This document shows positions 2,675-29,731 of a DNA stretch of 37,051 bases, piece after piece; positions within the stretch are counted from its first letter, which is position 1, and the number at the start of each line of letters is the position of its first letter. The stretch lies in NCBI RefSeq assembly GCF_021864505.1, contig NZ_JAKJIB010000010.1:1-37051 (forward strand), in the 5' to 3' direction. The translations under genes and the position numbers were made by a program. Source of the stretch: Falsiroseomonas oryziterrae. GTDB taxonomy: Bacteria; Pseudomonadota; Alphaproteobacteria; Acetobacterales; Acetobacteraceae. The notes below the pieces were generated by a model. It saw nothing but the letters and a program-made list of their open reading frames with translations. It was not told the DNA's origin and ran no database searches.

Positions 2675-2798
2675 GAGGAAGGCTAAGCTGCCAGGGACGG
2701 GCAAGACCCGTCGCTTGACGCGAGGAGCGTAGCAACCCCCGTGCCACGGATCGGCGGGGCCCTCTGATAGCCTTTGCGGCCCCCCGATCGCGCCTCAG

Positions 2799-2827
2799 TT
2801 GACAGGATTGGCGCTCCCCTCCCTATT
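2799..2827 (+). promoter_or_regulatory. Possible promoter for the glycosyltransferase/uxs/GT61 run
   Basis: A perfect TTGACA (2799-2804) is followed after 17 bases by CCTATT (2822-2827), or after 19 bases by TATTCG. The -10 is poor. Transcription starting about 2835 would place the GGGGGA ribosome-binding site (2843-2848) and the ATG at 2859 in a short leader, which fits that start. Confidence 0.35.
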
Positions 2828-2858
2828 CGCGGAGGGATGGCTGGGGGATCCCGCGCGA

Positions 2859-3860: not shown

Positions 3861-3875
3861 GCCCAGGACCAAGCC

Positions 3876-4826
<951 letters not shown>

Positions 4827-4860
4827 GCGCCTGGGTGCGCCTTTTGTCCGAATCCGCCGG

Positions 4861-6081: not shown

Positions 6082-6483
6082 CCGGCCGGGTCGCCTGTGG
6101 CGGTCGTGCCCGCCAGCGGCGACAGGCGCTGTCGAGCGCCGCCCCGGGAAGCTCGCGGGCCAACGGGTCGCCCGCGCACCGGGGAGCGCGAGGCGGTGAC
6201 ACGGGCAGCTGCCGGTGAAGCCGGCTCGGATCGCGCCGTCGGTTCTCCGGTGACTCGCCGACAGCAGGATGTCAGCCGACCTCGGCAGCGTCGGCGACAC
6301 GCCGGATGAAACACGGCCTACGCTCGCGCAGCCCGCATTCCGCGGCACTGAGAACACCCTCGCCGCTCGGTCATGCGCAGCCGGCGAGCAGCAGGTCAAA
6401 CAGCATCGCGTGGGGAACGCGAGATTCGGGCCGGTCGCCACTGACGGAGTTCGATGGCCCGATGCCGGTCTGCCCTCCCTGCG
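6082..6483. other. 402-base gap between convergent genes with no intact gene
   Basis: Between the stop of the GT61 gene and the stop of the minus-strand methyltransferase gene there is no credible coding frame. The only recognisable content is a thiolase gene relic at 6211-6290 (listed separately). No U-tract terminator or tRNA was seen. Confidence 0.6.
6211..6290 (-). pseudogene. Relic of a thiolase gene (fragment)
   Basis: The 80 bases align with 8989-9066 inside the intact thiolase gene, in the same orientation, with about 80-85% identity by eye and one single-base gap. Translated on the minus strand it reads DILLSASHRRTDGAIRAGF, against DILLSASHRRTEGEIPAGF at thiolase residues 124-142. 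Similarity fades on both sides, and no start, active-site cysteine region or C-terminal part is present. It is therefore a decayed fragment of a second copy, not a gene. Confidence 0.72.
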
Positions 6484-8214: not shown

Positions 8215-8241
8215 CTGGTCCCCCGACACGCGACGCGACGG

Positions 8242-13845: not shown

Positions 13846-14829
13846 ATGACCCTCGACCTCCCGCTCGCCGAGCGCCTCGCGCGGATCGCGCTCGGCCATG
13901 TCGCGCTGGAATGGCCCCAGAAGCTCGACCAGGTGTTGGAGGGGCCAGAGGATCTCCGCCGCCCCTCCGAGTTGCATCCCGTCTTCCATGGCAGCTTCGA
14001 CTGGCATTCCTGCGTGCATGCGCATTGGATGCTGGCGCGCCTGCTGCGCCGCGTCCCTGGCCTGCCGGCCGCGGCGGACATCGCGGCGCGCTTCGACCAC
14101 GCCTTCACGGCGGAGAAGGTCGCGGCGGAACGTGCCTTCCTCACGCGTCCCGCCGCGCGCGGCTTCGAACGCCCCTATGGCTGGGCCTGGCTGCTGAAGC
14201 TGCATGCGGAGTTGGATGGCGGATGGGCTGCGGCGCTGGCGCCGCTCGCGCAGGACTTCGCCGCGCGCTTCACGGCGCATCTGCCGCTCGCCGACTATCC
14301 GGTGCGGCACGGCGTGCATTCCAACACCGCCTTCGCGCTCACGCTGGCCGCGGACTGGGCGGAACGCCACGACGCCGCGCTGCTCAGGCTGCTGCGCCAG
14401 ACGGCGATGCGCTGGTACGGGGCGGATGCGGATGCGCAGGCCTGGGAGCCTTCGGGCGAGGATTTCCTCTCGCCCGTGCTGATGGAGGCGGCCTGCATGG
14501 CGCGCCTCCTGCCACCCGGCGCGTTCGCCGACTGGCGCGACCGCTTCCTCCCGCGCCTCGGTCAGGGCGAGCCGGCGGCGCTGCTGGAACCGGCGCGTGT
14601 CTCCGACCGCACCGACGGGCGGATCGCGCATCTGGATGGCGTGAACCTCTCGCGCGCCTGGTGCTGGCGCGTTCTGGCCGCGGGCTTCGCGCCCGACGAT
14701 GCGCGCCGCGGGCTGGCCGAGGACGCGGCCGCGCGGCATGTCGCCGCCTCGCTGCCGCATGTGGACGGGCACTACATGGGCTCGCACTGGCTGGCGAGCT
14801 TCGCGGTGCTGGCGCTGGACGGGGCCTGA
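13846..14829 (+). CDS. DUF2891 family protein
   Basis: A 327-residue protein matching the DUF2891 family by its overall pattern: an N-terminal LHPVFHGSFDWHSCVHAHWM, then GFERPYGWAWLLKLHAEL, YPVRHGVHSNTAFAL, SGEDFLSPVLMEAA and C-terminal LPHVDGHYMGSHWLASFA. The many conserved His, Trp and Glu residues and the regular helices suggest an alpha/alpha-barrel of the kind seen in glycan-active enzymes. The activity of the family is not known to me. It is divergent from the peroxiredoxin gene (229 bases apart) and stands alone on the plus strand. No signal peptide or membrane segment is visible. Confidence 0.8.
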   Translation: MTLDLPLAERLARIALGHVALEWPQKLDQVLEGPEDLRRPSELHPVFHGSFDWHSCVHAHWMLARLLRRVPGLPAAADIAARFDHAFTAEKVAAERAFLTRPAARGFERPYGWAWLLKLHAELDGGWAAALAPLAQDFAARFTAHLPLADYPVRHGVHSNTAFALTLAADWAERHDAALLRLLRQTAMRWYGADADAQAWEPSGEDFLSPVLMEAACMARLLPPGAFADWRDRFLPRLGQGEPAALLEPARVSDRTDGRIAHLDGVNLSRAWCWRVLAAGFAPDDARRGLAEDAAARHVAASLPHVDGHYMGSHWLASFAVLALDGA

Positions 14830-15185
14830 GGCGGTCATTGGCAGTCCCGGCACCCGCCTTGCGCAGCACTGCCTGCTGCCGCGACCCGGTCCGCCCCAGC
14901 ATCGCGCAGGGCGAATGGTCCCGCAGCGTCGTGGCTTGGCGAAGGTGCCGGGCGGGATGCACCAGGGCGGCAGGTCGTGCTCTGGTTTGACGGATCGAGG
15001 AGCAGATCGGCCGACGCACGGACGTTGACAGTGCGCCGAACGTCACGCCACTAGTTCCCATGCGTTACGCAACGCCGCAGACTGCGCATGCACACGAGTG
15101 ACGGGCGGAGGGCGCTCGACGCGGAGCTCGCGCGGACCATCACGCCTCTCCGCCACCAGGGGCCCGGCCTTGGGTCGGACGCGCC
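14830..15185. other. 356-base intergenic region, possible promoter only
   Basis: No gene is recognisable. A perfect TTGACA occurs at 15025-15030, but no good -10 box lies 16-18 bases downstream (CCACTA at 15048-15053 is poor). A short inverted repeat, GCGTT-ACGC-AACGC, is at 15062-15075. These could belong to the promoter region of the FkbM-GT61 genes that start at 15186. Otherwise nothing is seen. Confidence 0.4.
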
Positions 15186-17126
15186 ATGCTGATCTACGAC
15201 GTGGGCATGCACCGCGGCGAGGACACCGCCTACTACCTCGCCAAGGGGGCACGAGTCGTCGCGATCGAGGCGAATCCCGAACTCTGCGCTTTGGCGCGGA
15301 CGCAGTTCGCGCGCGAGATCACGGATGGGCGCCTGACCATACTCGAGATCGCTGTGGGCGATGATGACGGCGAGGCGGTGTTCCACATCGCGCCCACCCA
15401 TTCCGTGCACAGCAGCCTGGTCGCGATGCCGGATGCCCGCCCGGTGCGCGTCCGCATCCGCCCGCTATCCGCCGTGTTCGAGGAGTTCGGCACGCCGGAT
15501 TTCTGCAAGATCGACGTCGAGCATGTGGACCATATCGTGGTGGCCGAGATCGCCCGCTCGGGCCGCCTGCCCCCGCAGATCTCGGTCGAGGCCCATCGCG
15601 ACGACGTGCTACGAGCGCTCGTCGGCGCAGGATACCGGGATTTCCGGCTCGTCAATGCGCGCGGTGCCGGGCAGCGCTACGGTGAGTGGAACATCCGTCG
15701 GCTGGACGGCACGGTTGCGCCTTTCCGCTTCGGCAAGCATTCGAGCGGTCCTTTCGGCGACGACCTGCCCGGCGAGTGGCACGACGCCGATGGCGTGAGG
15801 GAGGTATGGCGCCGCCGCAGCGAATTGCTGGGGCCAGGCTGGTACGACCTGCACGCGCGACTGTCCGTCTCGTCGGCTGGTATGTCGCCCGCGCCGGAGG
15901 ATGTACCCGCTTCGACGCCAGACGGAGCGCCCGCTGTGGCGACGGATGCGGCGGCAGGCTTCGTCCTCGCGTCACGCATCCCGGCCCATGCGCTGCCCGG
16001 CTCGCGCCTGGTTGCGGATTTCGCCATGCCGAGCCCCGTCCACGACCTCGCACGGCGTGTAGGTTTCGCCGACGCGGCCACGCGCGATGAGTGCGCGCGG
16101 CGAGCCCCTTTCCTTTCCGGCGTTCCCTATGAAGTGCCGTCTGCCGGTTTGTTCGAGGTGCCGGAGGTTCGGCTGCTGCACCATCCTCGCGCGGAGGGGA
16201 TGTGCTTCACCGACCGCGACGAGCTGGTGCGCGAGACCCGGGGCAGCCCGCGCATCGTCGAGGGTAACGACTGGCTGCGCTGGATCGACCACGACGCCTG
16301 GTTGCGCCGAGGCCTCGGGGCGGATGGCGAGGTCAAGCGCGGCGCCGTCTGCTACGATTCCGCCTCGCGCAACTTCGCGCACTTCATGATGATCATGCTG
16401 CCGCGGCTCATGCTGGTGGACCACACCATGGCGGGCGTGCCGATCCTGCTGCCCGACCTGCCGGGCTACGGGCCAGGCGCGGGCGCAGGCATCCCGAACG
16501 AGATGCTGCACCGGCTGGCCGATATCCATCCCCTGTCGAACGGCAACTTCTACGCCCCCCTCGGTGCCGGCGTCTGGAAGCTTCGCGGCGCTCTGATCCC
16601 CTCGATCGGATCGAGCCGCTGGGACATGGTGCTGCATCCCGTGGTCCGCGCGGGCTTCGCCCGCATCGCGGCCGAGGCGCTGCGTCGGCATGCCGCGCTC
16701 CACGGCGCCGCAGACCTGCCGCGGCGCATCTATGTCTCGCGCCAGGGCGCCTCGCGCCGGCGGGTCGCGAACAACGACGCAGTCGAGGAGGCACTGGCCG
16801 CCCGCGGCTTCGTGGCGGTGCAACTGGAGAAGCTCGACTTTTTCGCCCAGGCAGCGCTCTTCGCGCAGGCCGAGGCGGTGGTCGCCGTACACGGTGCGGG
16901 CCTCGCCAACCTGCTGTTCAACGACGGCCGCGCCGGGGCGGTGGAACTCTATCCCGCCGGCGACCCGCAATACCACTTCGCCCTCTGCGCCGGCGCCTCG
17001 GGCTGCGCCTATGTCCCGCTGGCCTGCCAGCCTGCGAACAAGTTGCGCGACGTCACGGTGGACCTCGTGAAGCTGGAGCGTGCGCTCGAGCTGCTGTCGC
17101 CGTGGTCAAGGACAGGGCAGCGGTGA
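15186..17126 (+). CDS. FkbM methyltransferase fused to GT61 glycosyltransferase (subfamily A)
   Basis: A 646-residue fusion. Residues 1-~200 are an FkbM-type SAM methyltransferase: YDVGMHRGEDTAYYLAKGAR (SAM loop, residues 4-23), IEANPELCALA, and FCKIDVEHVDHIVVAE, where most FkbM proteins have an EG pair after KIDV. Residues ~300-646 are a GT61 domain with SRNFAHFMMIMLPRLML, IYVSRQGASRRRV near 515 and EAVVAVHGAGLANLLF near 563, closely paralogous to the protein at 4861-6081. A low-complexity linker around residues 235-265 (Ala/Pro-rich) separates the domains. The likely role is O-methylation plus glycosyl transfer on one glycan. The next gene starts inside this one (25-base overlap), showing tight coupling. 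Confidence 0.86.
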   Translation: MLIYDVGMHRGEDTAYYLAKGARVVAIEANPELCALARTQFAREITDGRLTILEIAVGDDDGEAVFHIAPTHSVHSSLVAMPDARPVRVRIRPLSAVFEEFGTPDFCKIDVEHVDHIVVAEIARSGRLPPQISVEAHRDDVLRALVGAGYRDFRLVNARGAGQRYGEWNIRRLDGTVAPFRFGKHSSGPFGDDLPGEWHDADGVREVWRRRSELLGPGWYDLHARLSVSSAGMSPAPEDVPASTPDGAPAVATDAAAGFVLASRIPAHALPGSRLVADFAMPSPVHDLARRVGFADAATRDECARRAPFLSGVPYEVPSAGLFEVPEVRLLHHPRAEGMCFTDRDELVRETRGSPRIVEGNDWLRWIDHDAWLRRGLGADGEVKRGAVCYDSASRNFAHFMMIMLPRLMLVDHTMAGVPILLPDLPGYGPGAGAGIPNEMLHRLADIHPLSNGNFYAPLGAGVWKLRGALIPSIGSSRWDMVLHPVVRAGFARIAAEALRRHAALHGAADLPRRIYVSRQGASRRRVANNDAVEEALAARGFVAVQLEKLDFFAQAALFAQAEAVVAVHGAGLANLLFNDGRAGAVELYPAGDPQYHFALCAGASGCAYVPLACQPANKLRDVTVDLVKLERALELLSPWSRTGQR

Positions 17127-19327
17127 GGCAGGAGGAGGCGATCAGGCTGGCGCGCCGCGCCTTTCCCCGTCTGCCCTTCGACTGCGTCTTCGACGTCGGT
17201 GCCAATTGCGGACAGTCCAGCCGGGCGTTCCTCGGCCTGTTTCCCGCTGCGCGCATCCACGCCTTCGAGCCCGCCAGCGAAACCTTCGCCGAACTCGCCA
17301 GGGCGCTGGAGTCCGAACCCCGGGTCGCCTGCCACCACCTCGCCCTCGGCAGCGAAGCCGGCGACGTCCGCGTGACGTGCTTCGGCACCTCGGTCTCCAA
17401 CACGATCGTGCCCGCGACCGCTGCCGTCCCCACCGAGGCGGTCCGGCGCGAGACAGGCGACGGCTTCTGCGCGACGCAGGGGATCGGGCGCATCGGCTAT
17501 CTCAAGATCGACACCGAGGGCCACGATCTCGAGGTGCTGCGCGGCTTCGAGACGATGCTACGGGAGCAGCGGATCGACCTTCTCGAGGTCGAGGCCGGCA
17601 TGCATCACCACAACGAGAAGCACGTGCCGATCGGCGTGTTCATGGAATACCTCGCGCCGCTCGGCTACTTCCTGTTCCAGGTCGCCGAGCAGGCCTTCGA
17701 GCGCCATGGCCGCGCGCATCTCCGGCGCGCCAACCTGGTCTTCGTCTCGGACCATGCGGTGCGCGGCAACCTCGCACCGGACGCGCCGAGCAAGCGCTTC
17801 CCGGTCTATCCGCTGGCAGCACCGGCACTGCGCCTCGCGCTGCTGACCCCGAAGCACCTGCAGGTGCCGGCGACGCCGGGCGGCATCAGGCTGAAAGGCG
17901 GCCTTCAAGGCAGCGGCGGCGCGACAAGCCAGCCTTCCGCGGCGCTTGAACTGCGCTGGCGCAGGCCGGAGCGCACGGAGCCCCTGTGGACGGAAAGGCA
18001 GGAGGTGCCACTGCGCAAGCCCGCGCCGGACCGCCTGGAGTTCGAGGCCAAAGCCGGCACCGCCGGGCTGCCGGTCGGGGAGTTGATCCTCGAGGTCGCG
18101 CTGTCGCTCGCCGAGGGACAGCGAGCCACTGCCACACTGCGCGTGCATCGCCACGGGCCCGGCGCGGATCCCGCCCTCGCGTTGCGCGATGCCGAGTGGC
18201 TTTATCCCGTGACGCTGCGCGCCCTGGCTGTGCGACCGTCGCGGGACACGACGCCCACCAACGGCGATGCGCTGCTGGAAATCGAGCCGTCAAGCGAGAT
18301 CACCGGCCCCTTCGCCCGCGAGGACGACCTCGCCGCGATGCAGGTGGCCTCGGCACGGTTTCTCGCCGGGCACTGGCGGGCGAACGGCTTCCGCGCGCCT
18401 GGCCTCGCCGTCGCCGTACTGAGGGATGCAGAGGGGTACGGGACCGGCAGCGCCGTCTCTACCGCAAGCGGGCTCTTCGGCGAGACCATCCATTTCGCCA
18501 CGCGACGGCCCTGGCGCGTCTATCTCCAGGGCGCGCTCGGCTCGGTGAAGGAGGATGGGGAGCAGGTCTTCGAAGCGGCGGCGCTTCTGTTCAACGAGGG
18601 ACCGCATCTCTACTACCACTGGCACGCCAACTCCCTGGCCGCCGTGCATGCGATGCTGCTGCTCGAGGAACGCGCCGGCCTCGCGCCCGTGCCCCTGCTG
18701 ACCCGTCCCATGCGGTCCTGGCAGGCCGAGTCCCTCGCGCTGCTCGGCGTCCCGGCGGAGCGGCTGTGCACCGTGCCGCCACGCGCCTGGCGCGTGCGAA
18801 AGTTGTTCCTGCCTTCGCCACTCATCGAAGGCACGGATCATCCTGATCCCTCGCTCCTTGGAATGTTCGGGCGCATCCGGGACGCCGCGCGCCGCGCCGC
18901 GCCGCCGGGCGACACGCCGCCGATCGTCTATGTCTCGCGGCTCGACACGCCACATCGGCGGCCCATGCTGAACGAGGAGCGGCTTGTGGAGCGGCTGCGG
19001 GCACGTGGCATATTCATCTTCGACGCGCGCGAGCACGGCTATGCCGCGCAGGTCCGTCTATTCGCCGGTGCGCGCGTGATCATCGGGCCGCACGGGGCGG
19101 GGCTCGTGAACATGGGTTTCGCCGCACCGGGTGCGCGCATCGGCGAGATCTTCCATGCGGGCGAGCAGGCCCTCTACTACGCCCGCCTCGCGCTGCTATG
19201 CGGTCATCCCTATCGCGCCGCGGTCGTCGGCCCGTCACCGGCGGCCGACGCGCCGAAAGGGGGATGGGTCGCGGACGAAGACGCCGTGATGCGCTTCCTC
19301 GACGACATCCTCCGGAACGACACCTAG
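17102..19327 (+). CDS. FkbM methyltransferase fused to GT61 glycosyltransferase (subfamily B)
   Basis: A 741-residue fusion starting at GTG 17102, 25 bases before the previous stop. Residues ~25-250 are FkbM: CVFDVGANCGQSSRAFLGLF (SAM loop at 28-47), IHAFEPASETF, and IGYLKIDTEGHDLEVLRGFE with the usual TEG motif. Residues ~250-400 are beta-rich. The GT61 domain follows, with YYHWHANSLAAVHAM, IVYVSRLDTPHRRPMLNEE near 610 and IIGPHGAGLVNMGFAAPG near 661. The FkbM part differs clearly from that of the upstream gene, and the GT61 part belongs to the other subfamily, so the two fusions did not arise by simple tandem duplication. Its stop is only three bases from the stop of the convergent GT61 gene. 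Confidence 0.86.
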   Translation: MVKDRAAVRQEEAIRLARRAFPRLPFDCVFDVGANCGQSSRAFLGLFPAARIHAFEPASETFAELARALESEPRVACHHLALGSEAGDVRVTCFGTSVSNTIVPATAAVPTEAVRRETGDGFCATQGIGRIGYLKIDTEGHDLEVLRGFETMLREQRIDLLEVEAGMHHHNEKHVPIGVFMEYLAPLGYFLFQVAEQAFERHGRAHLRRANLVFVSDHAVRGNLAPDAPSKRFPVYPLAAPALRLALLTPKHLQVPATPGGIRLKGGLQGSGGATSQPSAALELRWRRPERTEPLWTERQEVPLRKPAPDRLEFEAKAGTAGLPVGELILEVALSLAEGQRATATLRVHRHGPGADPALALRDAEWLYPVTLRALAVRPSRDTTPTNGDALLEIEPSSEITGPFAREDDLAAMQVASARFLAGHWRANGFRAPGLAVAVLRDAEGYGTGSAVSTASGLFGETIHFATRRPWRVYLQGALGSVKEDGEQVFEAAALLFNEGPHLYYHWHANSLAAVHAMLLLEERAGLAPVPLLTRPMRSWQAESLALLGVPAERLCTVPPRAWRVRKLFLPSPLIEGTDHPDPSLLGMFGRIRDAARRAAPPGDTPPIVYVSRLDTPHRRPMLNEERLVERLRARGIFIFDAREHGYAAQVRLFAGARVIIGPHGAGLVNMGFAAPGARIGEIFHAGEQALYYARLALLCGHPYRAAVVGPSPAADAPKGGWVADEDAVMRFLDDILRNDT

Positions 19328-19330
19328 CCT

Positions 19331-21031
19331 TCAGATCCGCCCCGCCTTCGCTTCCGCCTCCAGCAGCGGGTCGAGGAACGCCAGGAAGGCCGGAACGTCG
19401 AGCCGCCACGCCTTGGCTTCCGTCTCGGCGGGGTCGGCCTCGGGCGCGGTGAAGGCGCGGTAGCGTTGGCCGAGCACCTGCGCGAAGCGGAGATAGAGCG
19501 GCGAGGTGTAGAAATGCGGATGAATCTCGACCACCAGCGCGTCGCGCGCGGCGAAGCCGATATTGGTCAGCCCCGCCCCATGCGGCGCGATCACCACCCG
19601 CGCCCTTGATGCCGTCAGGACCTGCTGCGCGTAGCCGAGTTCCGCGGAGACGAAGATGCGCACGCCGCGCGCCCGCAGCGCTTCGATCAATTCGGGCTCG
19701 TTCAGCATGGGCCTGATCGTCGAATCGGTGCGAGCGACGTAGATCAACTCGGGCCGCCCGGCGGCCTCGGGCAAGCGCAGCGTGCCGGCCTCGGCCCGCG
19801 CGAGCGCGGCGGCGCGGATGCGGCGGCAGACCGAGCGGAGCAGCGGCTCGATGCCGACATTCATGCGCAGCACCGCGCTTGGCCAATAGAGCCGCTCGGG
19901 CTGCAGGCAGCGCCGGCCGATCGTCCTGACCCGCCGGTCATCGAGGCCGAGCAGGTCGACCGCCTCCTTCGTCCAGCCCGAGAGATCGGGCAGCAGGATG
20001 TCGAAATCCGGCGCGCCGCCCAGGTCGCGGAACATCTCGAGCTGGACGAGCGCGGCCAGCGGCTCGGCATGGGTGTGGTAGTAGTTGTGCTTGCGCCAAG
20101 GCGCGGCCCACCAGATGCCGACATCGCCGCAGCGCTCCGGCTCGGACCAGGGCTCCAGGAAGGGGCGGATCTGGTAGAAGGGCGGAGTGCGGGGATGCAG
20201 CGCGCCCCAGCTTTCGTCGGCGATACCGCCGGCGCCGACCACGCAGCCGGTCTGGCCCATCACGGTGGCGCCGTGCATCACGCCGACCCAGAGCCCGTTG
20301 AGCGGATAGGACCGCTGCGAGAAGCGCTTCGGCAGGCCGTTTGCGGCCAGCATCCCCGCCAGGTCGGCCGCGTCCATTGGCAGCAGCTGCACGGGGGCTG
20401 GCGCGCGCATGACCAGTCGATGGTCTGCGCCCTCCCCTGCCGCCGGCACGGATGCCCCGAGCGGGAAGGCCGGCAGATCCTCGATCCGCATCGAACGCAG
20501 CGGAAGGGCCACCTGCTGGTCGCGCAACGGAAGGTCCGCCACGCGCAGCACGAGCGTCTCCACGGCGGAGATCGCGAGCACGGCGTCGTCGCCGTCCAGC
20601 AGCGTGGCGATGGCGCGGCCGGGTCCGGCAGGCAGGCTGTCGTCCCGGAACTCGAAGCGGAAGGCGGCCGGCGCTGCGCCAGGCGCGGGCAATTCGATGG
20701 TCGTTTCCTCGCGCCGCAGCGACGAGCCGTCGCTGCCGAGCCAGTCGAGCACGACCCTGCCAGGGCCGGCCATCCCGCCTTCCCCCGCAACCTCGCCGGC
20801 CGCGCGCAGCCCAGCGAAAGGAAGGTGCAGCAGGCGCGGCGCCGCGAAGCCGATGCGAAACGCATCCCCCGTCCGCGGCGCAGCGGCTGCCTTCGCGGCG
20901 AGGTCTGAAGGATCGAGGCTCATCGGGTCGAGCTCATGGCGGCAGGCGTTGTACAGCAGTTCGCCGGCCTCGCAGACAGGGCAGCGCCGACCGGCCGGTG
21001 CGACGCCCTCGGTCAGTGCGCCACTTCGCAC
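19331..21031 (-). CDS. GT61-family glycosyltransferase (subfamily B) with Cys-containing N-terminus
   Basis: A 566-residue protein. After an N-terminal segment with RRCPVCEAGELLYNACRHE (Cys17, Cys20, Cys30; possibly a small metal-binding knuckle) come a beta-rich domain of about 180 residues and a GT61 domain: HNYYHTHAEPLAALV, LIYVARTDSTIRPMLNEPE near 428, and VIAPHGAGLTNIGFAARD near 478. It ends in the WRLDVPAFLAFLDPLLE tail shared with its paralogs. GTG 21031 is chosen because GGGAGGGG stands six bases upstream. ATG 20923 is a possible alternative without that site and would omit the cysteines. The divergent GT61 gene starts only 30 bases away. Confidence 0.83.
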   Translation of the reverse strand: MRSGALTEGVAPAGRRCPVCEAGELLYNACRHELDPMSLDPSDLAAKAAAAPRTGDAFRIGFAAPRLLHLPFAGLRAAGEVAGEGGMAGPGRVVLDWLGSDGSSLRREETTIELPAPGAAPAAFRFEFRDDSLPAGPGRAIATLLDGDDAVLAISAVETLVLRVADLPLRDQQVALPLRSMRIEDLPAFPLGASVPAAGEGADHRLVMRAPAPVQLLPMDAADLAGMLAANGLPKRFSQRSYPLNGLWVGVMHGATVMGQTGCVVGAGGIADESWGALHPRTPPFYQIRPFLEPWSEPERCGDVGIWWAAPWRKHNYYHTHAEPLAALVQLEMFRDLGGAPDFDILLPDLSGWTKEAVDLLGLDDRRVRTIGRRCLQPERLYWPSAVLRMNVGIEPLLRSVCRRIRAAALARAEAGTLRLPEAAGRPELIYVARTDSTIRPMLNEPELIEALRARGVRIFVSAELGYAQQVLTASRARVVIAPHGAGLTNIGFAARDALVVEIHPHFYTSPLYLRFAQVLGQRYRAFTAPEADPAETEAKAWRLDVPAFLAFLDPLLEAEAKAGRI

Positions 21032-21061
21032 CCGCGCCCCTCCCGTTTATCTCACATTGCG

Positions 21062-22540
21062 ATGAACTCATTGCACCCGCGGCTCGAGGCGCTGGGGCCG
21101 GCGGTCTGCCTGCCGACCGTCGGGATGCGGTTGCCGCTGCGCCTCTCACCCGCGGCCGGGTCGGCGGAAGTCGCCCTGACCCTGTATTGGCAACTCGACG
21201 CCGAGTCCGCGCCACGACGGGTGGACCGGATCACCGCCCTGGCCAGCCAGGAGGCGGACGGGCTGGTGTTCGAGGCGCTCGTCCCGCGCGGCGACCTGCC
21301 GGGCGGTCGTTACCGGCTGTCGGTCACGGCCGATATGCCGGACGGCGCGGCGACAACCGACCTCGTCGCCGAGGTATGGGATTTCGCCGCGCCGTCCACC
21401 GTGGCGCGGCTGTCGCCTGCGATCCTGCGCAGCGTCGCGCTCCGCGACCTGCCGCGGGCCGGCGAGCATGCGGCGTGGCCGGGCGACACCCGGCTGGTCA
21501 TGCGTGAGGCCGAGCCCCGTGCCGGCACGAGCCTCGACCCCCGAGACCTGCGCCAGATGGCGGAGGCGGGTGCCCTCGCGAAACGGGTCGTGCGCGGCTA
21601 CCAGGTGCCGGAGCTCTCCGCCGCGCTGCTGGAGGAGGCAGTGGTGTTCGGTCCACAGAACGTGGTGGCGAGCCGCCTGGGCGTTCTGGAGGACAGCTGG
21701 CGCGGCGCCAAGACGATGCGGCCGGAGGAACTCGCGCTCGGGCCCTTCCGCACGCCGCGCGCGCCGAAGCACCTCGATGGCACGCCCGTGCTGACGCAAC
21801 GTACGGCCTATCTCGCGCGCAAGGCGAACTACTACCACTTCCACGCCGAGCACATTGCCGCACTTCTCCAGGTCGAGTTGCTGCGGAAGGCCCATCCCGG
21901 GCTCGACCTCTTCGCCCTCGTGCCGGACTACGCCCCGATGCATGCCGAGAGCGTGGCCTTGCTCGGCGCAGACCTCGGGCCGGCCGTCACGCTGGACGGC
22001 TCGGACTTCTCCGCCGCGCGGCTCGTCTTTCCGAGCGCCGTGCTGGGCAATGCAGAGCGCGCCAACGACCCGCTGATGGCCGAGGCGCTGCAGCGCATTC
22101 GCCGCAACGCGCTGGCGGGCGGGACGGCGCATGGCGCGCGTGCGGTCTATGTCTCGCGACTGGATGCGACGAGCCGGCGCATGCGGAACGAGGACCGTCT
22201 CGTGGAGGCGCTCGCATCGCGCGGCGTCGGGATCTTCACTGCCGGTGGGCGGAGCTATCGCGAGCAGGTTCTGTGCTTCGCCGACGCACGGGTCGTGATC
22301 GGGCCGCATGGGGCCGGGCTGACGAACATAGGTTTCGCGGCGCCGGGCGCGACGCTGGTCGAGATCTTCCAGGCGAGCTTCACCCTGCCATTCTATCCGC
22401 GCCTCGCGGCGCTGCTGGGTTGCCCTTACCGCTGCTTCACCCAGCGTGATGGGGACGAGGCCGGAGATCCCGGCAGCTGGACGCTCGATCTCGATGCCTT
22501 CCTCGCCTTCCTGGACCCGATCCTGGCCAGGACGGCGTGA
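21062..22540 (+). CDS. GT61-family glycosyltransferase (subfamily B) with N-terminal beta domain
   Basis: A 492-residue protein. Residues ~1-110 look like a beta-sandwich (CLPTVGMRLPLRL, then alternating strands such as GGRYRLSVTADMPDG). The GT61 catalytic region has ANYYHFHAEHIAALLQVELL, VYVSRLDATSRRMRNEDRL near 360 and VVIGPHGAGLTNIGFAAPG near 412, ending WTLDLDAFLAFLDPIL. It aligns from its first residues to its last with the C-terminal ~490 residues of the 1156-residue protein at 26073-29543, which marks the boundaries of a complete transferable GT61 unit. ATG 21062 begins the conserved region; no good ribosome-binding site precedes it. Donor and acceptor are unknown. Confidence 0.86.
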   Translation: MNSLHPRLEALGPAVCLPTVGMRLPLRLSPAAGSAEVALTLYWQLDAESAPRRVDRITALASQEADGLVFEALVPRGDLPGGRYRLSVTADMPDGAATTDLVAEVWDFAAPSTVARLSPAILRSVALRDLPRAGEHAAWPGDTRLVMREAEPRAGTSLDPRDLRQMAEAGALAKRVVRGYQVPELSAALLEEAVVFGPQNVVASRLGVLEDSWRGAKTMRPEELALGPFRTPRAPKHLDGTPVLTQRTAYLARKANYYHFHAEHIAALLQVELLRKAHPGLDLFALVPDYAPMHAESVALLGADLGPAVTLDGSDFSAARLVFPSAVLGNAERANDPLMAEALQRIRRNALAGGTAHGARAVYVSRLDATSRRMRNEDRLVEALASRGVGIFTAGGRSYREQVLCFADARVVIGPHGAGLTNIGFAAPGATLVEIFQASFTLPFYPRLAALLGCPYRCFTQRDGDEAGDPGSWTLDLDAFLAFLDPILARTA

Positions 22541-22551
22541 TGGTCGTCCGG

Positions 22552-22596
22552 CGCCTTCGCGCGGTGCGGAAACTGCCGCTGGCGCAGGCGAAGGCG
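22552..22596. terminator. Hairpin between convergent genes, possible two-way terminator
   Basis: CGCCTTCGC (22552-22560) and GCGAAGGCG (22588-22596) pair perfectly over nine bases with a 27-base loop. The hairpin lies just after the plus-strand GT61 stop and just before the minus-strand stop at 22598. There is no U tract on either side, so termination is only suggested by position. Confidence 0.3.
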
Positions 22597-22597
22597 A

Positions 22598-24814
22598 TCA
22601 CCGTCCGATATGCGTCGCTGTGCGGGGCTCGCCCGGGTGGCCCCAGACGAAGGTGCCGAACAGTCGCATGGCCGCCGGCAGTCCCGCGCGCGATTCGACG
22701 TAGCGGTAGCGGTTGTTGACCGTCCGCTCGACGCCGCCCGCACCGAAATTCTCCTGGTCGGCGGCGGTACTCTCGGAGATCAGCGGCCGAATGACGCGGA
22801 GCAGGTAGTCGCGGCGGATGATCTGTGGGTTGTTGGAGAAGGTCGGCGTGCGGCAAAGCCGGCTTTCGCGATCCCGCCTGCCCTGGGTCAGAATGCTGTC
22901 GTAGCCGGCGACGACGTTCGATCGGCGGGCGTATCGGATGTAGAAGGCATCCGGCCGCGCCAGCATCGTCTCCACCACGCGCGAGAGCGGCGGACACTCC
23001 GGCTGGAACTCCAGGTCGTGCTCGATCAGCAGCACGAGGTCGGTCCTGGCCCGCGCCATGGCGTCGAGCCATTGCCGCCTGAGCCCATTGCCGTGATTGA
23101 CCACGAGCCCGAGGCCGGCCTCCGCGCACCAGGCTTCGAGATTGCGGCGGTAGATCGCGTTCTCCTCGGTCTCTCGATGGTCGTAGAGCACTGTGATCGG
23201 GAAGTCCGGTCGCAACTCCATCCGCTCGCGCATGGTCATCACCGTGCGCTGGATCAGGCCGAGACCGGGCCCGGCGAGGTCGCCGAAGACCTGCAGCTTC
23301 TCCTTGCGGTGGAGATGCGTGAAGACGAAGGCCTCCACGGCAGGCTGGACGGGCGCCGGCGCCAGCGCATCGGCGGCATGTGCAAGCAGCGTCGCGAGCA
23401 GTGGATCCCCGGACGCCTCGGGCAGGTCCAGCGCCGCCTCGAACCCTGCCTTGGCGGCCGCGAGGTCCCCGGCGTCGAGCGCGACACAGGCCTCGCCGAG
23501 CAGGGCCGGCAGCATAGCGGGCCGCTCCGCCCGCGCCGTGCCGTAGAACAGGCCGGCCCGCTCCGGCAGATCGAGCAACAGCAGCGCGTCACCCAACAAA
23601 CGCCAGATCTCGGCGGCGTCGCGCTCGGCGGCGATCTCCTCGCGGAGGCGTTCGGCCTCGGTGACAAAGAAATGGAGCGCGCCGCGGTCGCGCACCGTGA
23701 TCGCCGCGGCAAGTCCACCCCGGACCGCCTCGGCGCGGAGCGGCGCGACCGCGCCCTCGTGCAGTGCACGCTGGTAGATCTTCAGGCGGTCGGACCAGCT
23801 CAGCAGGACCTTGGACCGCGCCGCGGCGAGTTCGGCGCCCAGCGGAAGCACGCCCCCCGCCATGGCGAGCAGCCTCTCCCGCAAGGTCCGGGCCTGCTCC
23901 ACGTGATCGCGGCCGCGAGCGGCAGCGGTGAGATAGCGCTCGGCCACGGCGGCGAAGCCCGCGCGGTCGGTGCTTAGATCGACTTCGGCGAGCGCCGCCT
24001 CGAACATCGCAAAGCCCGCTTCTGTGTCGCCGGCGGCGCAAAGCGCCTCCGCGCGCATCAGCGTCACGGCATGGCGCGCCGGCGTCCCCTGGGCGTCGTC
24101 GAAGCAGGTCGCGAAATCCAGCAGGCGCGGCAGCTGGAGGGCGCCATAGGCGGCGTTGGCGTGATGGCGGTCGCTCGGTTCGCCGAATTCGGGCCGCAGG
24201 AAGCTCGCCCGCGGCAGGCCCTGATACGCCTCGATCGGCGCCCGCAGCACGGGGATGCCGAGGCCGGCGAGTTCCGCATCGATCGCACCGCGCGCGAGCC
24301 GGTCGATCTCGAGCACCGCCTCCGGCGCTCCCGTCTTTTTCACCCCGATATCATCGCGCCGCACCGGCGGGGATTCCACGACGAAGAAGCGTACGCCGGC
24401 GCGGCGAAGGTCGGCGAGCCAGGCGAAGGCATGGCGGAAATGCTCGCGCACGATGGCCGTGACGGCGGCGTCGCTGACGGGCTGGAGCCCCTCCGCGCAG
24501 CAGCGCCAGGGCCGGTGCGTCCGCCAGGTCGCGCTCCAGAGCAGCAGGCTGGTGGAGAAGGGCAGCGATATCGCGAAGACGTCGCCCTCCGGTCGCATCA
24601 CGGCGCTGCCGCTGACGGCCAGGAAGCGTCGGGCCATGTTCTCGTCGAGAAAGCCGACGCCGCCGGGCGCAAGGTGATGGAACGGCTTGAGCGTGGCCGG
24701 GAAGGAGAACAGCTTGACGATCGGCACCGCGTCCGGCCAGGCGCCGGCAGGCAAGGCGCGCCGGCCCAAAGCCAGCGACACGACATGCGAATCGCCGAGC
24801 ACATGGAGCCTCAT
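22598..24814 (-). CDS. Three-part protein: SGNH-like domain, helical repeats, C-terminal glycosyltransferase-like domain
   Basis: A 738-residue protein. The N-terminus MRLHVLGDSHVVSLALG carries a GDSH block (residues 7-10), and EPSDRHHANAAYG near 213 supplies a D-x-x-H block, together suggesting an SGNH-type esterase or acyltransferase fold. Residues ~240-490 are Ala/Leu/Glu-rich helices resembling TPR repeats (ALCAAGDTEAGFAMFEAALA). From ~490 on, FVFTHLHRKEKLQVFGDL, PITVLYDHRETEENAIYRRN and LVLLIEHDLEFQPECPPL suggest a GT-A-like glycosyltransferase with an HD motif. The start ATG overlaps the stop of the GSCFA gene (ATGA, 24814-24811), which rules out the longer open frame to the right. Domain calls are by motif only; the SGNH call is the firmer one. 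Confidence 0.68.
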   Translation of the reverse strand: MRLHVLGDSHVVSLALGRRALPAGAWPDAVPIVKLFSFPATLKPFHHLAPGGVGFLDENMARRFLAVSGSAVMRPEGDVFAISLPFSTSLLLWSATWRTHRPWRCCAEGLQPVSDAAVTAIVREHFRHAFAWLADLRRAGVRFFVVESPPVRRDDIGVKKTGAPEAVLEIDRLARGAIDAELAGLGIPVLRAPIEAYQGLPRASFLRPEFGEPSDRHHANAAYGALQLPRLLDFATCFDDAQGTPARHAVTLMRAEALCAAGDTEAGFAMFEAALAEVDLSTDRAGFAAVAERYLTAAARGRDHVEQARTLRERLLAMAGGVLPLGAELAAARSKVLLSWSDRLKIYQRALHEGAVAPLRAEAVRGGLAAAITVRDRGALHFFVTEAERLREEIAAERDAAEIWRLLGDALLLLDLPERAGLFYGTARAERPAMLPALLGEACVALDAGDLAAAKAGFEAALDLPEASGDPLLATLLAHAADALAPAPVQPAVEAFVFTHLHRKEKLQVFGDLAGPGLGLIQRTVMTMRERMELRPDFPITVLYDHRETEENAIYRRNLEAWCAEAGLGLVVNHGNGLRRQWLDAMARARTDLVLLIEHDLEFQPECPPLSRVVETMLARPDAFYIRYARRSNVVAGYDSILTQGRRDRESRLCRTPTFSNNPQIIRRDYLLRVIRPLISESTAADQENFGAGGVERTVNNRYRYVESRAGLPAAMRLFGTFVWGHPGEPRTATHIGR

Positions 24815-25905
24815 CGCGCGCTGGCCAGTTCCGGATCGATCTCGACCTCGTCGCAGATGACCCGCATCGCCTCGGCCTCGTCGGCATCCTCCGCCTCGGC
24901 AGGGCCAGCCGCGCTCGGCAGTGCCTCGACCGGAACGCCAAGCCCGCAGGCCCCGAGGAAGCAAGCCATGACGCGCTCCACCGCCCCCGCCCGCACATTG
25001 CGGCGGTCTGCCTCGAAGCAGTCGCCGGAAAGATGCGACGTCACGAGTTCGAAGGAGGGAAAGTAGTCCACGCCGGGATCGCCCGCGGCGACCTCGGCGG
25101 CCGCCGCGCGGAGCACGGCCTTCGCCTGGGCGGTCGCCACGACGACGTGGGCATCGGTGGCGGTGGCGACCAGCGGCACCGGCGAGACCGTCAGCAGCAG
25201 CCGGAGCGCCGGGTTGACCTCCCGCCCCAGCGCGAGCACGGCGCGGAGATCCTCGACGACCTCGGCGACGGTGAGATTGCGGAAGATGTGGCGGGCGGGG
25301 TCGAACTCGCCGGCCACGGTGCCCGGGCAGACGGGATAGGCGTGCCCTTCGACGGCGTTCATCCAGCATTCCGTCAGGCCCAGCGTGAAGACCAGGAGGC
25401 CGGCCTGCTCGATCAGGCGGCGGATCGCGGCATGGTGGGCGCGCCGCAACGCCCGCATCTCCTCTTCCGAGCCGAATCCACCGGGCTCGATGGCGGGGCG
25501 CATCGGATCGAACCAGCGACCGCCCTGCTCCCAGGCTTCCTCGATGGCGCGGCGGCCGAGCGCGGCTTCCACCAGATTGCGAAGCTGGCGGGCGGTGTAG
25601 ATGTTGCCGTATCGCGCGGAGTAGAGGCCGTAGCCGAAATCGGCCCAGCGATCCGGCGGTAGAAGTCCCGGCGCGGGCTCGACGTCGAGCAGGTTGCAGC
25701 CGGCCTTCCGCAGGGCGCGAGTGACGTGCTGGGCGAAGCAACTGCCCGCCGTGGCGATCGGCGTGTCGCGGTCGATGGAGAACTTCGGGCGGTAGATATC
25801 TCCGGCCTCGCCCGCCGCCCAGGCAGCAGCGGTCCGGCGCCAGAAGTGGCGGTCGGGCAGCCTGGCATAGGGATGCTCGTGTCGCACGGGGCGATCGGGG
25901 CTCAT
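24811..25905 (-). CDS. GSCFA domain protein
   Basis: A 364-residue protein with the family-naming motif: IATAGSCFAQHVTRAL, GSCFA at residues 54-58. Further family-like stretches are FGYGLYSARYGNIYTARQL, FTLGLTECWMN, LLTVSPVPLVATATDAHVVV and VDYFPSFELV. GSCFA proteins belong to the SGNH hydrolase superfamily and have been linked to glycan or exopolysaccharide biosynthesis, but the activity is not settled. The serine of the motif is the likely nucleophile. It overlaps the next gene, itself SGNH-like, by four bases (ATGA), so the two products are probably made together. It is divergent from the large gene at 26073, with 167 bases between. Confidence 0.88.
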   Translation of the reverse strand: MSPDRPVRHEHPYARLPDRHFWRRTAAAWAAGEAGDIYRPKFSIDRDTPIATAGSCFAQHVTRALRKAGCNLLDVEPAPGLLPPDRWADFGYGLYSARYGNIYTARQLRNLVEAALGRRAIEEAWEQGGRWFDPMRPAIEPGGFGSEEEMRALRRAHHAAIRRLIEQAGLLVFTLGLTECWMNAVEGHAYPVCPGTVAGEFDPARHIFRNLTVAEVVEDLRAVLALGREVNPALRLLLTVSPVPLVATATDAHVVVATAQAKAVLRAAAAEVAAGDPGVDYFPSFELVTSHLSGDCFEADRRNVRAGAVERVMACFLGACGLGVPVEALPSAAGPAEAEDADEAEAMRVICDEVEIDPELASAR

Positions 25906-26072
25906 GCGGCTGTCTTAACAATGCGCCCGAGCCGCGACCAGCACCTGGCGGTACGCCTTGATCACCGGCGGCGCTTGACAGGCGATGCACAGCGGAAGTT
26001 GCCGATGGCACGCACGGCGGGGCAATCGGTTCGGGTCGATGAAGTGCCTGACGAGGACGTGCCTGGGTCCTC

Positions 26073-29000
26073 GTGACCCGCTCCATCGCAACCTATCAAC
26101 CGGGTGGCCGAGGGGGCACGGACTGCACTCGCAACATCTTGCCGATCACCGTGGGCCCGGCCACGATTTGGGTTGAAGCGACGGTGGCAGTAGTCTGCGG
26201 AGAGTGCCCCACTTTGGAACGCCTGCTGACATGGTTCGGCACGCTGGTCTACGAGGACGCGGTGTCGGCTCTGTGCCATGGCGAAGCCGGCACGGCGCCG
26301 CGTAACTTCTTGGCCCCTGCGCAAGCGGAGACGGAGGCGGACGGGTATGTCCGGCTCCGCCGCGACGGCGTGTTGCTGGAGGCAGCCGAGGATGGCTCGC
26401 TGAGGCCAACGTTGGACCCACGCACGCCGCAGACGCGCTTCCTGAGAATCGCCGACGACCGCTTGCGCGCTCTGCTCGGCCTCGGCGCCCAGGATTGGAC
26501 CCTGCATGACGGCCAGCACGTCAGGGCACAGGCGATACGACTCGGCCCCGGCTTTGCGCTCGAGTTCGGCCCCTGGCGCGTCGCCCTCGATGCTGATCCC
26601 AATACCTGCATCATCGAGAGCCAGGATGGCACCGTGCGGTGTTTGCGACTGGTCCACGATGATTGGCGCATAGGTCAGGCCCGAGCCTACCGGCCGCTAA
26701 TCTATAGCTGCGCCTTCGGGTCCGACACGCAGTTCCGCCAACTGGAACTGTTCCTCCGCTCCATCTCCGAGTTTGGCGCGTATGACGGCCATATCCTGCT
26801 GGTCACCGACCGTGATGAAGCGGCGCTACGTCAACTGATCCCGACCGGCTTCGCCGACAAGATGGTCTTGGTACGGAAGCGCCCTGATTCGGTCTTTGCC
26901 ATGCTCACGGCACGATATCAGATCGACGATCTACCCATCGAACGCTTCCAACCGGTCCTCTACCTCGACAGCGATGTGATCTGCGATGCGCCGATCGGGC
27001 CGTTGTTCGACGCCCTGAACTGCCGGGAGGGCTTTCACGCGGTGGCCGAATACCCTGGCCGCAGCGTGGCGGAAGCCGGCAAGCTGCGACCCTTCTTCGG
27101 CGCCTTCATCTTCAACAAACATCCGCCGAAGGGCGCTGCTCCGCAGTGCCTTAATTCTGGTTCCTTCGGCTTCGCGGATAAGGCAACGGCCGCGCCTGTA
27201 TTTCGCCAGATGCTGACGAGCCTTCGCGCCTATGCCGCGACGGAGCCGGATTTCAATGCTGCGATCGGTGATCAGCCTTTCTTCAACTATGCCTTGCAAA
27301 CGATCACGCGTCCCGACACGGACGTGCTCAACGGCTTCATCCGGACGCTGGGCAACCGCCAACCAGACCTGAGCGCGCCTCCCATCGGCCTCGTCCATTT
27401 CAACTCCGGCGTTGGGTACAGGGGCAAGCCAGCGGCGATGGCGGATTATCTTGCGCATTTGTCGCGCACGGGCCGTCCCGCCGCGCCAGCCATCCGGCTC
27501 AATCGCTCCATTCCCGGCCAGATGACCGACGTTGAGTTGCTGCGATTGATCGAGCTTGCACAAGCGGTTCCGCCCGGCGGCGTGATCGTTGAGGTCGGCA
27601 GCCTGTATGGCCTGTCAGCCTGGCACATGGCGAAGCACTGCTCGCCCGGGACGCGGGTCTTCTGCATAGATCCGTGGCAGCGTGTGAAGTGGATCATCCA
27701 CGGTGTCGAAGGCCCGCAAAGCGCACCGCCGTTCGGGCGCGCGGCTTTCGATGCCTTCACTGCGGATTGCGACAACATCGTTGCGATTCAGGGCTACAGC
27801 CCCGAGGTCGCAAGGGATTGGTCGTTGCCGGTCGATCTCTTTGTCGATGACGCCGTCCACACGAATCCGGCACTCGCCGAGAACATCGCGTTCTGGTCGG
27901 AACATGTGAAGCCCGGAGGCGTGATTGCCGGGCATGACTATGCCCGCAGATGGCCGGATGTGATCACAGAGGCCGAAAAACTTGCAGCGCGCTATGGCAC
28001 GCGTGTCGAGTGCTTCGACTCTCTCTGGTCGGTCAAGAAACCCGATCCCGACGCCGTGGTGACCGCGCCGCTCCGACTGGAGGCGACGGCCCCCGCCGTC
28101 TCGCTGCCTGGCGTCGGCATGCGTCTGCCGCTTCGCTTGGTCGGAACTCTACCGGGCCCGCCGCCGGGCTCCGTGTCCGTTGATCTGACTTGGCCTGGCG
28201 GGCGCGCCTCGACAACTGCCCCGCTTCGCCTGAGTGAGCATGGGCATGAGCTCGCAGTGGAGTTGCCGGCTGGTGAGCTCCCGTCCGGTGAAACCGAGCT
28301 TTCCTTGGTTGTGCGAGACCACGGAGGCACGGCACTCGGCAGCCTCGGTCTCTCGGCCATGGTACCTCGATTCGAGACGCTCCCGCTCCCCCGCGCCCTG
28401 CCGGCCGCAGCGCTGCGTCGCTTTGTCCTCGGCTCGCTGCCGGAGGCCCGGCCAGGTGACCGGCTGCATGGCGACCTTCGCCTCATTCTGCGCGACGCCG
28501 TGGCGAAGCCGTGCACGCCGCTCGATCCGCTGGACGCCGAGCGAATGGAGAAAGCCGGCGGACTGCTCAAACGATTCACCCGCCCTTACTCCGAACCGCC
28601 GCTCGAAGCGGCGGTTATCGAGGGTGGAGCTGTTCTCGGAACAGCCGGCCTGGTCGCCTCGCCCCGGCTCGGGTTGCTCGACGAAAGTTGGCATGCGGGT
28701 AACCTCAGGATTCCGGCCGAGGCAGGGCTGGCGCCTTTCCTGACGCCGATGCAGGCCGCCCGCGAGGTGCCGACGGCAATCGTCACCCATTGCGGCACCT
28801 ATGCCGGCAACAGGACCGACCATTACCATTTCCATGATGAGCACCTCGGCACGCTGCTACTTGCCGAGCAACTCCGCCAACACTTGCCGGAGGCCGAAGT
28901 GTTGGTGCCTCCGTACACCGCCTTCCACGCCGAGGCTGTCGGCCTGCTCGCTGCTGACCTTGGCGTCACCCGGACCCTGGCTACGGAACCAGTGCTCACC

Positions 29001-29543
29001 GCCGGCCACGCTGTCTTTCCTACGACGCTCGTCATGGCCCGCGACCGCTCGGTTGACCTGATGACGGCGAAAGCCATGCAGCGCGTCCGCGCCAGCGTAC
29101 TGCGCAGCGGACACCCGCCTCAGGGGGAACGCGTGGTCTACGTCTCACGGCTCGGCAGCGCGAGGCGGCGCATGAGAAATGAGGCCGCGCTGATGTCGCG
29201 CATGGAAGCGCTGGGCGGACGCGTTTTCGACGCGCGCGAACTCGGCTACCGCGAGCAGGTTCTCGCCTTCACCGAAGCGCGCCTCATCGTCGGGCCGCAC
29301 GGCGCGGGGCTGTCGAATATCGGTTTTGCGCCGCCGGGTTGCTCGATCGTCGAGATTTTTCAATCCAGCTTCGTGTGGCCGCAGTTCGCTCGGCTCGCAG
29401 GGCTGCTCGGCCACCGCTACCGTTGCTTCACCCAGGCCGAGACAGCCCCCGACCCTGCCGAGCCAGACAGCTGGACGCTCGACATCGACGCCTTCCTCGC
29501 CTTCCTCGACCCGATCCTCGAAAAGGCGGCGCGGGCCGCCTGA
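26073..29543 (+). CDS. Three-enzyme fusion: GT8-like glycosyltransferase, class I methyltransferase, GT61 glycosyltransferase
   Basis: A 1156-residue protein. Residues ~205-430 resemble a GT8-like transferase: LIYSCAFGSDTQFRQLELFL, VLYLDSDVICDAPIGPLFDA with DSD near 300, and LNSGSFGFA. Residues ~495-650 are a methyltransferase: GVIVEVGSLYGLSAWHMAKH, CIDPW, LFVDDAVHTNPALAENIAFW, GGVIAGHDYARRWPDV. Residues ~670-1156 are a full GT61 unit of subfamily B (VSLPGVGMRLPLRL, DHYHFHDEHLGTLL, VVYVSRLGSARRRMRNE, IVGPHGAGLSNIGFAPPG). The first ~190 residues are unrecognised. The start is uncertain: GTG 26073 has no close ribosome-binding site, and a TTG at 26214 after GGAGAG is an alternative. The first two-thirds are less GC-rich than neighbours (about 65% in one 60-base line checked against 78% in the transporter gene), suggesting transfer. 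Confidence 0.83.
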   Translation: MTRSIATYQPGGRGGTDCTRNILPITVGPATIWVEATVAVVCGECPTLERLLTWFGTLVYEDAVSALCHGEAGTAPRNFLAPAQAETEADGYVRLRRDGVLLEAAEDGSLRPTLDPRTPQTRFLRIADDRLRALLGLGAQDWTLHDGQHVRAQAIRLGPGFALEFGPWRVALDADPNTCIIESQDGTVRCLRLVHDDWRIGQARAYRPLIYSCAFGSDTQFRQLELFLRSISEFGAYDGHILLVTDRDEAALRQLIPTGFADKMVLVRKRPDSVFAMLTARYQIDDLPIERFQPVLYLDSDVICDAPIGPLFDALNCREGFHAVAEYPGRSVAEAGKLRPFFGAFIFNKHPPKGAAPQCLNSGSFGFADKATAAPVFRQMLTSLRAYAATEPDFNAAIGDQPFFNYALQTITRPDTDVLNGFIRTLGNRQPDLSAPPIGLVHFNSGVGYRGKPAAMADYLAHLSRTGRPAAPAIRLNRSIPGQMTDVELLRLIELAQAVPPGGVIVEVGSLYGLSAWHMAKHCSPGTRVFCIDPWQRVKWIIHGVEGPQSAPPFGRAAFDAFTADCDNIVAIQGYSPEVARDWSLPVDLFVDDAVHTNPALAENIAFWSEHVKPGGVIAGHDYARRWPDVITEAEKLAARYGTRVECFDSLWSVKKPDPDAVVTAPLRLEATAPAVSLPGVGMRLPLRLVGTLPGPPPGSVSVDLTWPGGRASTTAPLRLSEHGHELAVELPAGELPSGETELSLVVRDHGGTALGSLGLSAMVPRFETLPLPRALPAAALRRFVLGSLPEARPGDRLHGDLRLILRDAVAKPCTPLDPLDAERMEKAGGLLKRFTRPYSEPPLEAAVIEGGAVLGTAGLVASPRLGLLDESWHAGNLRIPAEAGLAPFLTPMQAAREVPTAIVTHCGTYAGNRTDHYHFHDEHLGTLLLAEQLRQHLPEAEVLVPPYTAFHAEAVGLLAADLGVTRTLATEPVLTAGHAVFPTTLVMARDRSVDLMTAKAMQRVRASVLRSGHPPQGERVVYVSRLGSARRRMRNEAALMSRMEALGGRVFDARELGYREQVLAFTEARLIVGPHGAGLSNIGFAPPGCSIVEIFQSSFVWPQFARLAGLLGHRYRCFTQAETAPDPAEPDSWTLDIDAFLAFLDPILEKAARAA

Positions 29544-29570
29544 ACCGCGTCGCCTAGGCAGACCCGGACA

Positions 29571-29593
29571 CGGCGGCGACCCAGCGGCCGCCG
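29571..29593. terminator. GC-rich hairpin after the large fusion gene
   Basis: CGGCGGC (29571-29577), loop of nine, GCCGCCG (29587-29593): a perfect 7-bp stem 28 bases after the stop at 29543 and 62 bases before the 3' end of the convergent tRNA. There is no U tract. Position between convergent units is the main support. Confidence 0.3.
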
Positions 29594-29654
29594 CACGATC
29601 AGCGAGATGAAGGCGCGCCGCCCCGCCTCGCCCGCTGGACCTGAGGCAGGCGTC

Positions 29655-29731
29655 TGGCGCGCCCGGAGGGACTCGAACCCCCGACCGACGGATTAGAAAT
29701 CCGATGCTCTGTCCAGCTGAGCTACGGGCGC
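29655..29731 (-). tRNA. tRNA-Arg (UCU)
   Basis: The minus strand reads GCGCCCG TA GCTC AGCTGGACA GAGC, then the anticodon arm CGGAT-TTCTAAT-CCG with anticodon TCT, a five-base variable region, the T arm with GGTTCGAGTCC, and the closing acceptor strand CGGGCGC. The acceptor stem is seven perfect pairs. A discriminator G and an encoded CCA follow (29657-29655). The whole is 77 bases and reads AGA codons. No repeat of its 3' end was seen elsewhere in the window. Confidence 0.97.

Follow-up and report, generated by a model that had tools for sequence, protein, structure and literature searches.

A predicted three-enzyme glycan assembly protein encoded beside a tRNA-Arg gene in Falsiroseomonas oryziterrae

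In contig NZ_JAKJIB010000010.1 of Falsiroseomonas oryziterrae, 1156 codons stand open at positions 26073-29543 (+) of a window of 37,051 nucleotides (the whole stretch of DNA analysed here), which raises the question of whether a single protein joins two glycosyltransferases and a methyltransferase and, if so, what it might do. An initial annotation had placed three transferase regions in this one stop-free frame, and this is borne out by the open frame, Pfam, profile searches, predicted structure and conserved residues. The GC content by codon position revealed a single coding phase across 26101-29540, and each of the five remaining frames is interrupted by 7 to 32 stops; the stop counts, together with the steady coding phase, imply that the open frame is not due to chance.

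The start had been set at GTG 26073, yielding 1156 residues. This codon is merely the longest option, and we rejected it, since the homologues begin (with ATG or GTG) at the residue aligned with TTG 26214. In the alignment the homologue starts MQVLSWFG (the trefoil-GT8 protein of Falsiroseomonas selenitidurans, L007/L054), MTFLLTHHG, MTYLLTGLG and MQFLLTGPG fall on LERLLTWFG, the sequence encoded from TTG 26214 onwards; moreover, a putative ribosome-binding site read from the sequence, GGAGAG (26199-26204, +), lies 9-11 bases 5' of that codon. Because the stand-alone homologues begin there and GGAGAG lies upstream, TTG 26214 is most likely the true start, and the fused gene would extend over 26214-29543 (+), end with TGA and encode 1109 amino acids. 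Residue numbers of motifs and modules are counted hereafter from TTG 26214, and Pfam match ranges from the 26073 frame. A scan of the 1109-residue protein did not retrieve any hydrophobic stretch of transmembrane strength. The modules are arranged in the order beta-trefoil, GT8-like retaining GT-A glycosyltransferase, Methyltransf_24, FnIII-like beta-sandwich and GT61 (POMGNT2-like).

The N-terminal region (residues 1 to about 150; 26214-26670, +) belongs to the roughly 190 residues that had appeared unrecognisable. The family evidence revises this, in that it points to a fascin-like beta-trefoil conserved together with this GT8 type: the region precedes the same transferase in most of the 15 relatives, two of which are shorter (alignment A1), and the family profile A1 matched fascin, a beta-trefoil, in the PDB at 1.1e-6, and designed trefoils weakly. 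Pfam Fascin was matched by one family member. The single sequence of the fused protein matched neither fascin nor other trefoils, the trefoil evidence coming from the family, and its own trefoil is shortened and devoid of the WExF motif of the relatives (alignment A1). AlphaFold predicts 12 strands within residues 1-124. A structural aligner run on the model of module 1 listed no trefoil for residues 1-150; the listed matches were filled by the GT-A domain, so this result says nothing about the trefoil. On these family and model data we conclude, with reserve, that the N-terminal domain is a beta-trefoil.

The trefoil is followed by the region (26671-27461, +) for which a GT8-like identity had been proposed from its DSD motif; profile, model and alignment agree on a real glycosyltransferase fold with active-site residues in place. 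Pfam GT8 matched residues 280-410 marginally (E 0.041), with a score of 13.9-16.3 bits against a curated cut-off of 24.3, which is why we call the domain GT8-like; the same Pfam family matched 10 of 16 relatives (best E 2.6e-8). In the PDB the family profile reached GlyE (5gvv, 0.0024); its match to WbbM (6u4b, 0.45) was not significant. The DxD (D252/D254), the DQ (D353-Q354) and H395 are invariant among the 16 relatives, some of which have S or T at the position of N314. The active-site set reported for LgtC, D103/N153/D188/Q189 (PMC7826918), corresponds to D252/N314/D353/Q354 of the fused protein. The AlphaFold model of module 1, built with eight sequences, has a pLDDT of 85.8 and a pTM of 0.86, and Foldseek aligned it with UGGT, glycogenin, LARGE1 and GlyE. 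With a structural aligner, GT6 enzymes scored Z 18 and LARGE1 scored Z 17.4, and the fold alone cannot separate GT8 from GT6. Furthermore, a stand-alone relative of module 1 (genome G007) shares 44% identity with it. According to sequence and model, module 1b is a predicted retaining GT-A enzyme of a GT8-like type.

The middle region (27486-28049, +), read at first as SAM-binding, can indeed be assigned to the SAM methyltransferases. Pfam Methyltransf_24 (PF13578) matched residues 506-623 with E 1.4e-12 and 48.8 bits, above the curated cut-off of 26.3, and the module keeps E460xG462xxxG466, D486-P-W488, D541, D546, H549 and D575, as in its relatives (alignment A7). The latter are a stand-alone protein of genome G362 (63-64% identity) and those of G020 (43-47%) and G522 (36%); the paralogue at 6487-8229 aligned badly and was left out of the folding alignment, and a search of viral contigs retrieved no relative of the methyltransferase. 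The nearest solved structure is PDB 6g7d, a weak match (E 3.9e-5), which we take to be Mycolicibacterium hassiacum MeT1, a mannose-oligomer 1-O-methyltransferase. MeT1 has been described as the 1-O-methyltransferase of the methylmannose polysaccharide (PMC9883506, where entry 6g7d is not named). It is this nearest structure alone, and not a feature of PF13578 as a whole, that suggests a methyltransferase acting on a sugar oxygen.

The C-terminal part of the protein had been read as a complete GT61 unit, and its fold and active-site residues agree with that reading. Pfam GT61 (PF04577) matched residues 918-1093 (E 3.4e-18; 66.6 bits, cut-off 27), and the invariant active-site residues of the GT61 set are present (alignment A6), including YVSR 976-979, R985, N989, HGAGLSN 1029-1035 and E1047 in the GT-B domain (28473-29540, +). 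By sequence, the nearest PDB entries are EOGT (0.0011) and POMGNT2 (0.58). The model of the methyltransferase, beta and GT61 portions (model 2) has a low confidence (62.9), its GT61 part being mostly at pLDDT 75-90; with it the best 16 Foldseek rows are all POMGNT2 (E to 4.9e-11), in agreement with a POMGNT2-like GT-B fold. An Ig/FnIII-like beta-sandwich (28059-28470, +), seen as strands in this low-confidence model and matched by Foldseek to FnIII and SKICH domains, precedes the GT61 domain, as it does in the stand-alone paralogue at 20936-22540. Domain predictions hence support both transferases, the GT8-like and the GT61 one.

How did these modules come to share a frame? The stand-alone methyltransferase of G362 has MTLNLSIPGQM in its initial part and ends with DTLWSVERPA and a stop; in the fused protein the corresponding stretches are IRLNRSIPGQM and DSLWSVKKPDPDA, and then VVTAPLRLE follows. 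At this methyltransferase/GT61 junction the GTG codon 28056 (GTGGTG, 28056-28061, +) aligns with the ATG of the GT61 paralogue at 20936-22540 (MNSLHPRLE), which is probably the true start of that paralogue. The linkers between modules measure about 5-10 residues and lie at former gene ends. Since the ends of the stand-alone relatives fall on the junctions, the sequences indicate that the fused gene arose by the head-to-tail joining of three genes.

The same architecture was then sought in other genomes, namely 59 relatives and larger sets from the family (397 genomes), the order (397) and the class (385); these sets overlap and comprise an estimated 800 or so distinct genomes. In the three large searches, scoring was limited to the two top-ranking candidates of each genome, among which a full-length relative would be expected to come first. 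The whole-protein search did not retrieve, from any of these about 800 genomes, a second protein spanning two or more of the modules in the same order, so that the fusion is unmatched among them; a first contig-level scan with the whole protein retrieved no relative either. Few genomes carry the methyltransferase module (three others out of 397 at E 1e-12), and plasmid records contain single modules only (Azospirillum, Methylobacterium). Trefoil-GT8 proteins are frequent in Acetobacteraceae; the fascin-like trefoil plus GT8 family (alignment A1) also extends to at least one other alphaproteobacterial family, in genome G1008 (L109, L110).

Analogous fusions do exist. In genome G214 a trefoil-GT8 module is fused to a different type of methyltransferase (L036:1336-3468/L072:3436-5568), a fusion independent of the one in F. 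oryziterrae; others are GT61-TPR-FkbM (L016) and GT2-GT61 (L043). Two FkbM methyltransferase-GT61 fusions identified with Pfam lie upstream of our gene (15186-17126, + and 17102-19327, +, the second also with a beta-sandwich). These, together with the GT8-methyltransferase of G214, imply that the pairing of such activities recurs. A literature search found no paper on GT61/FkbM fusions, nor any on bacterial trefoil-GT8 enzymes or fascin-type glycosyltransferases in this bacterial family.

The fused gene sits in a 15-kb glycan island (14829-29655) between a DUF2891 gene and a tRNA-Arg (TCT) gene (29655-29731, -), the right edge, which adjoins TpsB in congeners too. The stretch at 15.2-29.5 kb contains five GT61 genes together with genes for a GSCFA protein and a GT2-like one. 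Besides the fused gene and the two FkbM-GT61 fusions, these comprise a stand-alone GT61 (19331-21031, -) 32-34% identical to module 3; the closest paralogue of module 3, a GT61 with beta-sandwich (20936-22540, +; 43-45%); and the GSCFA family protein (24811-25905, -; 1.9e-46). The protein at 22598-24814 (-) opens with an SGNH-like segment (GDSH), continues into a long middle part that resembles alpha repeats, and finishes with a weakly GT2-like region. A search of the genome found six GT61 domains, every one of them within the window, compared with 0-3 in fourteen congeners. In genome G006 the distance from the DUF2891 gene to the tRNA-Arg/TpsB/KdsD block is 1.8 kb, with no island, and neither G008 nor G011 has an island beside the same tRNA-Arg. 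The site holds an Xre-like regulator in G006, an FkbM-like methyltransferase and a regulator in G008, and almost nothing in G011. The fused gene has a third-position GC of 0.73-0.80, whereas many backbone genes nearby reach about 0.9 or more. No integrase family was found among the window ORFs scanned with Pfam, and the window contains no flanking direct repeat of the tRNA end, that is, no attachment-site repeat at the tRNA; for this reason we speak of an island and not of an integrative element. As far as its gene content tells, the region represents a tRNA-Arg-flanked island made up of variable glycan genes.

A second insertion relative to G008 and G011, at 2750-8230 between g1132 and a thiolase gene, carries an epimerase, a GT61 sharing 63% identity with the GT61 half of the fusion at 15186, and a Methyltransf_24 protein of 581 amino acids (6487-8229, -) whose C-terminal 330 or so residues have no Pfam match. 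On the other side, 316 bases separate the fused gene from a downstream gene for a TpsB transporter; a functional tie to it was rejected, TpsB being genus-wide and present where the island is absent. Three TPS-domain exoprotein fragments occur on other contigs of the genome (L051, L052 and L053; G000 C141, C198 and C226), two of them adjoining a TpsB-like gene of their own.

Taken together, these data make it probable that the gene encodes a cytosolic three-enzyme glycan assembly protein derived from the head-to-tail fusion of three genes. GT8 enzymes transfer with retention and GT61 enzymes with inversion, from which the proposed stereochemistry is taken. Module 1, the trefoil with its retaining GT8-like enzyme, would probably use a UDP-hexose donor and form an alpha linkage; module 2 would be a SAM-dependent and probably metal-dependent O-methyltransferase, probably acting on a hydroxyl group of the sugar chain as it grows; and module 3, an inverting GT61 with its own beta-sandwich, would probably add a beta-linked sugar. 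The two beta domains might help to hold the acceptor, and in the simplest working model all three modules would act on one growing surface glycan. Catalytic activity, donors, acceptor, order of action, surface destination and product are all inferred from sequences and models. A bolder version, in which the one protein both builds and methylates an entire surface-glycan repeat or cap and the fascin-like trefoil serves as a built-in acceptor lectin, appears doubtful to us; if true, it would amount to a bacterial assembly line complete in itself and of a previously undescribed architecture.

The alternative that survives best, although we give it a rather limited chance, is that the modules are all active on different acceptors or steps, the fusion serving equal dosage and co-localisation. 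Each module exists alone elsewhere, stand-alone GT61 paralogues adjoin the fused gene, and model 2, of low confidence, predicts no fixed arrangement of the modules; on the other hand, the linkers are very short, and the precedent of A064R, as far as it is cited in PMC7826918, works sequentially on one glycan.

A protein target in place of a polysaccharide, such as a surface or two-partner-secreted adhesin that the enzyme would decorate, is unlikely. The nearest characterised relatives by sequence or fold do include protein glycosylators (EOGT, POMGNT2, GlyE), and both the downstream TpsB gene and the TPS exoprotein fragments might hint in this direction; yet TpsB is a backbone gene of the genus, so that its nearness establishes no link, and the fragments reside on other contigs, two of them beside their own TpsB copies.

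Improbable, too, is a degenerate module (most likely the GT8 or the methyltransferase one) left over from the fusion, with one or two activities remaining: the GT8 score below the cut-off and the shortened trefoil without WExF would fit it, but the active-site residues invariant in the GT8 type are present, as are those of the methyltransferase and GT61 sets, and the codon-phase bias continues through every module. Finally, an assembly artefact linking separate genes is very hard to credit, even for a unique architecture in a draft of 735 contigs, for the 821-base stretch spanning both junctions occurs just once in the genome, which makes a repeat-driven misassembly unlikely, coding phase and composition are unbroken across the junctions, with no sign of a frameshift or assembly join, and misassembly would have had to join gene ends in frame twice independently, which is improbable.

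If the three modules do cooperate on one glycan, the fusion would link the retaining transfer, the O-methylation and the inverting transfer of a single uncharacterised glycan and make them accessible from a single construct. Moreover, it points to an overlooked trefoil-GT8 family in Acetobacteraceae and other Alphaproteobacteria, and it highlights a tRNA-Arg site where congeners vary in glycan genes.

Among the closest known systems is A064R of chlorovirus PBCV-1, one protein responsible for two glycosyl transfers and one methylation (as cited in PMC7826918). Like the fused protein, and within what that citation conveys, it combines two glycosyltransferases and a sugar O-methyltransferase that build one glycan stretch; it differs in its order (GT-GT-MT), its length of 638 amino acids, its viral origin and its two rhamnosyltransferases, and the likeness does not imply kinship of the modules. 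PBCV-1 A111/114R and Klebsiella WbbM are multi-domain glycan enzymes that likewise include a GT8-like domain bearing the DQ signature, but they have no reported methyltransferase and no GT61, and the WbbM profile match is the non-significant one given above. The neighbouring FkbM-GT61 fusions likewise have a methyltransferase ahead of GT61; it belongs to another family, and they lack a trefoil/GT8 module. The trefoil-GT8 protein of F. selenitidurans BU-1 (L054) represents a complete module 1, 44% identical and with the same start, but it and its relatives end after GT8, with neither methyltransferase nor GT61. POMGNT2 and EOGT share fold and family with module 3, differing in being eukaryotic, single and protein-directed enzymes. 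Multi-domain glycan assembly enzymes are thus known; what is new, as far as the predicted domains and the roughly 800 genomes compared here tell, is this triple architecture.
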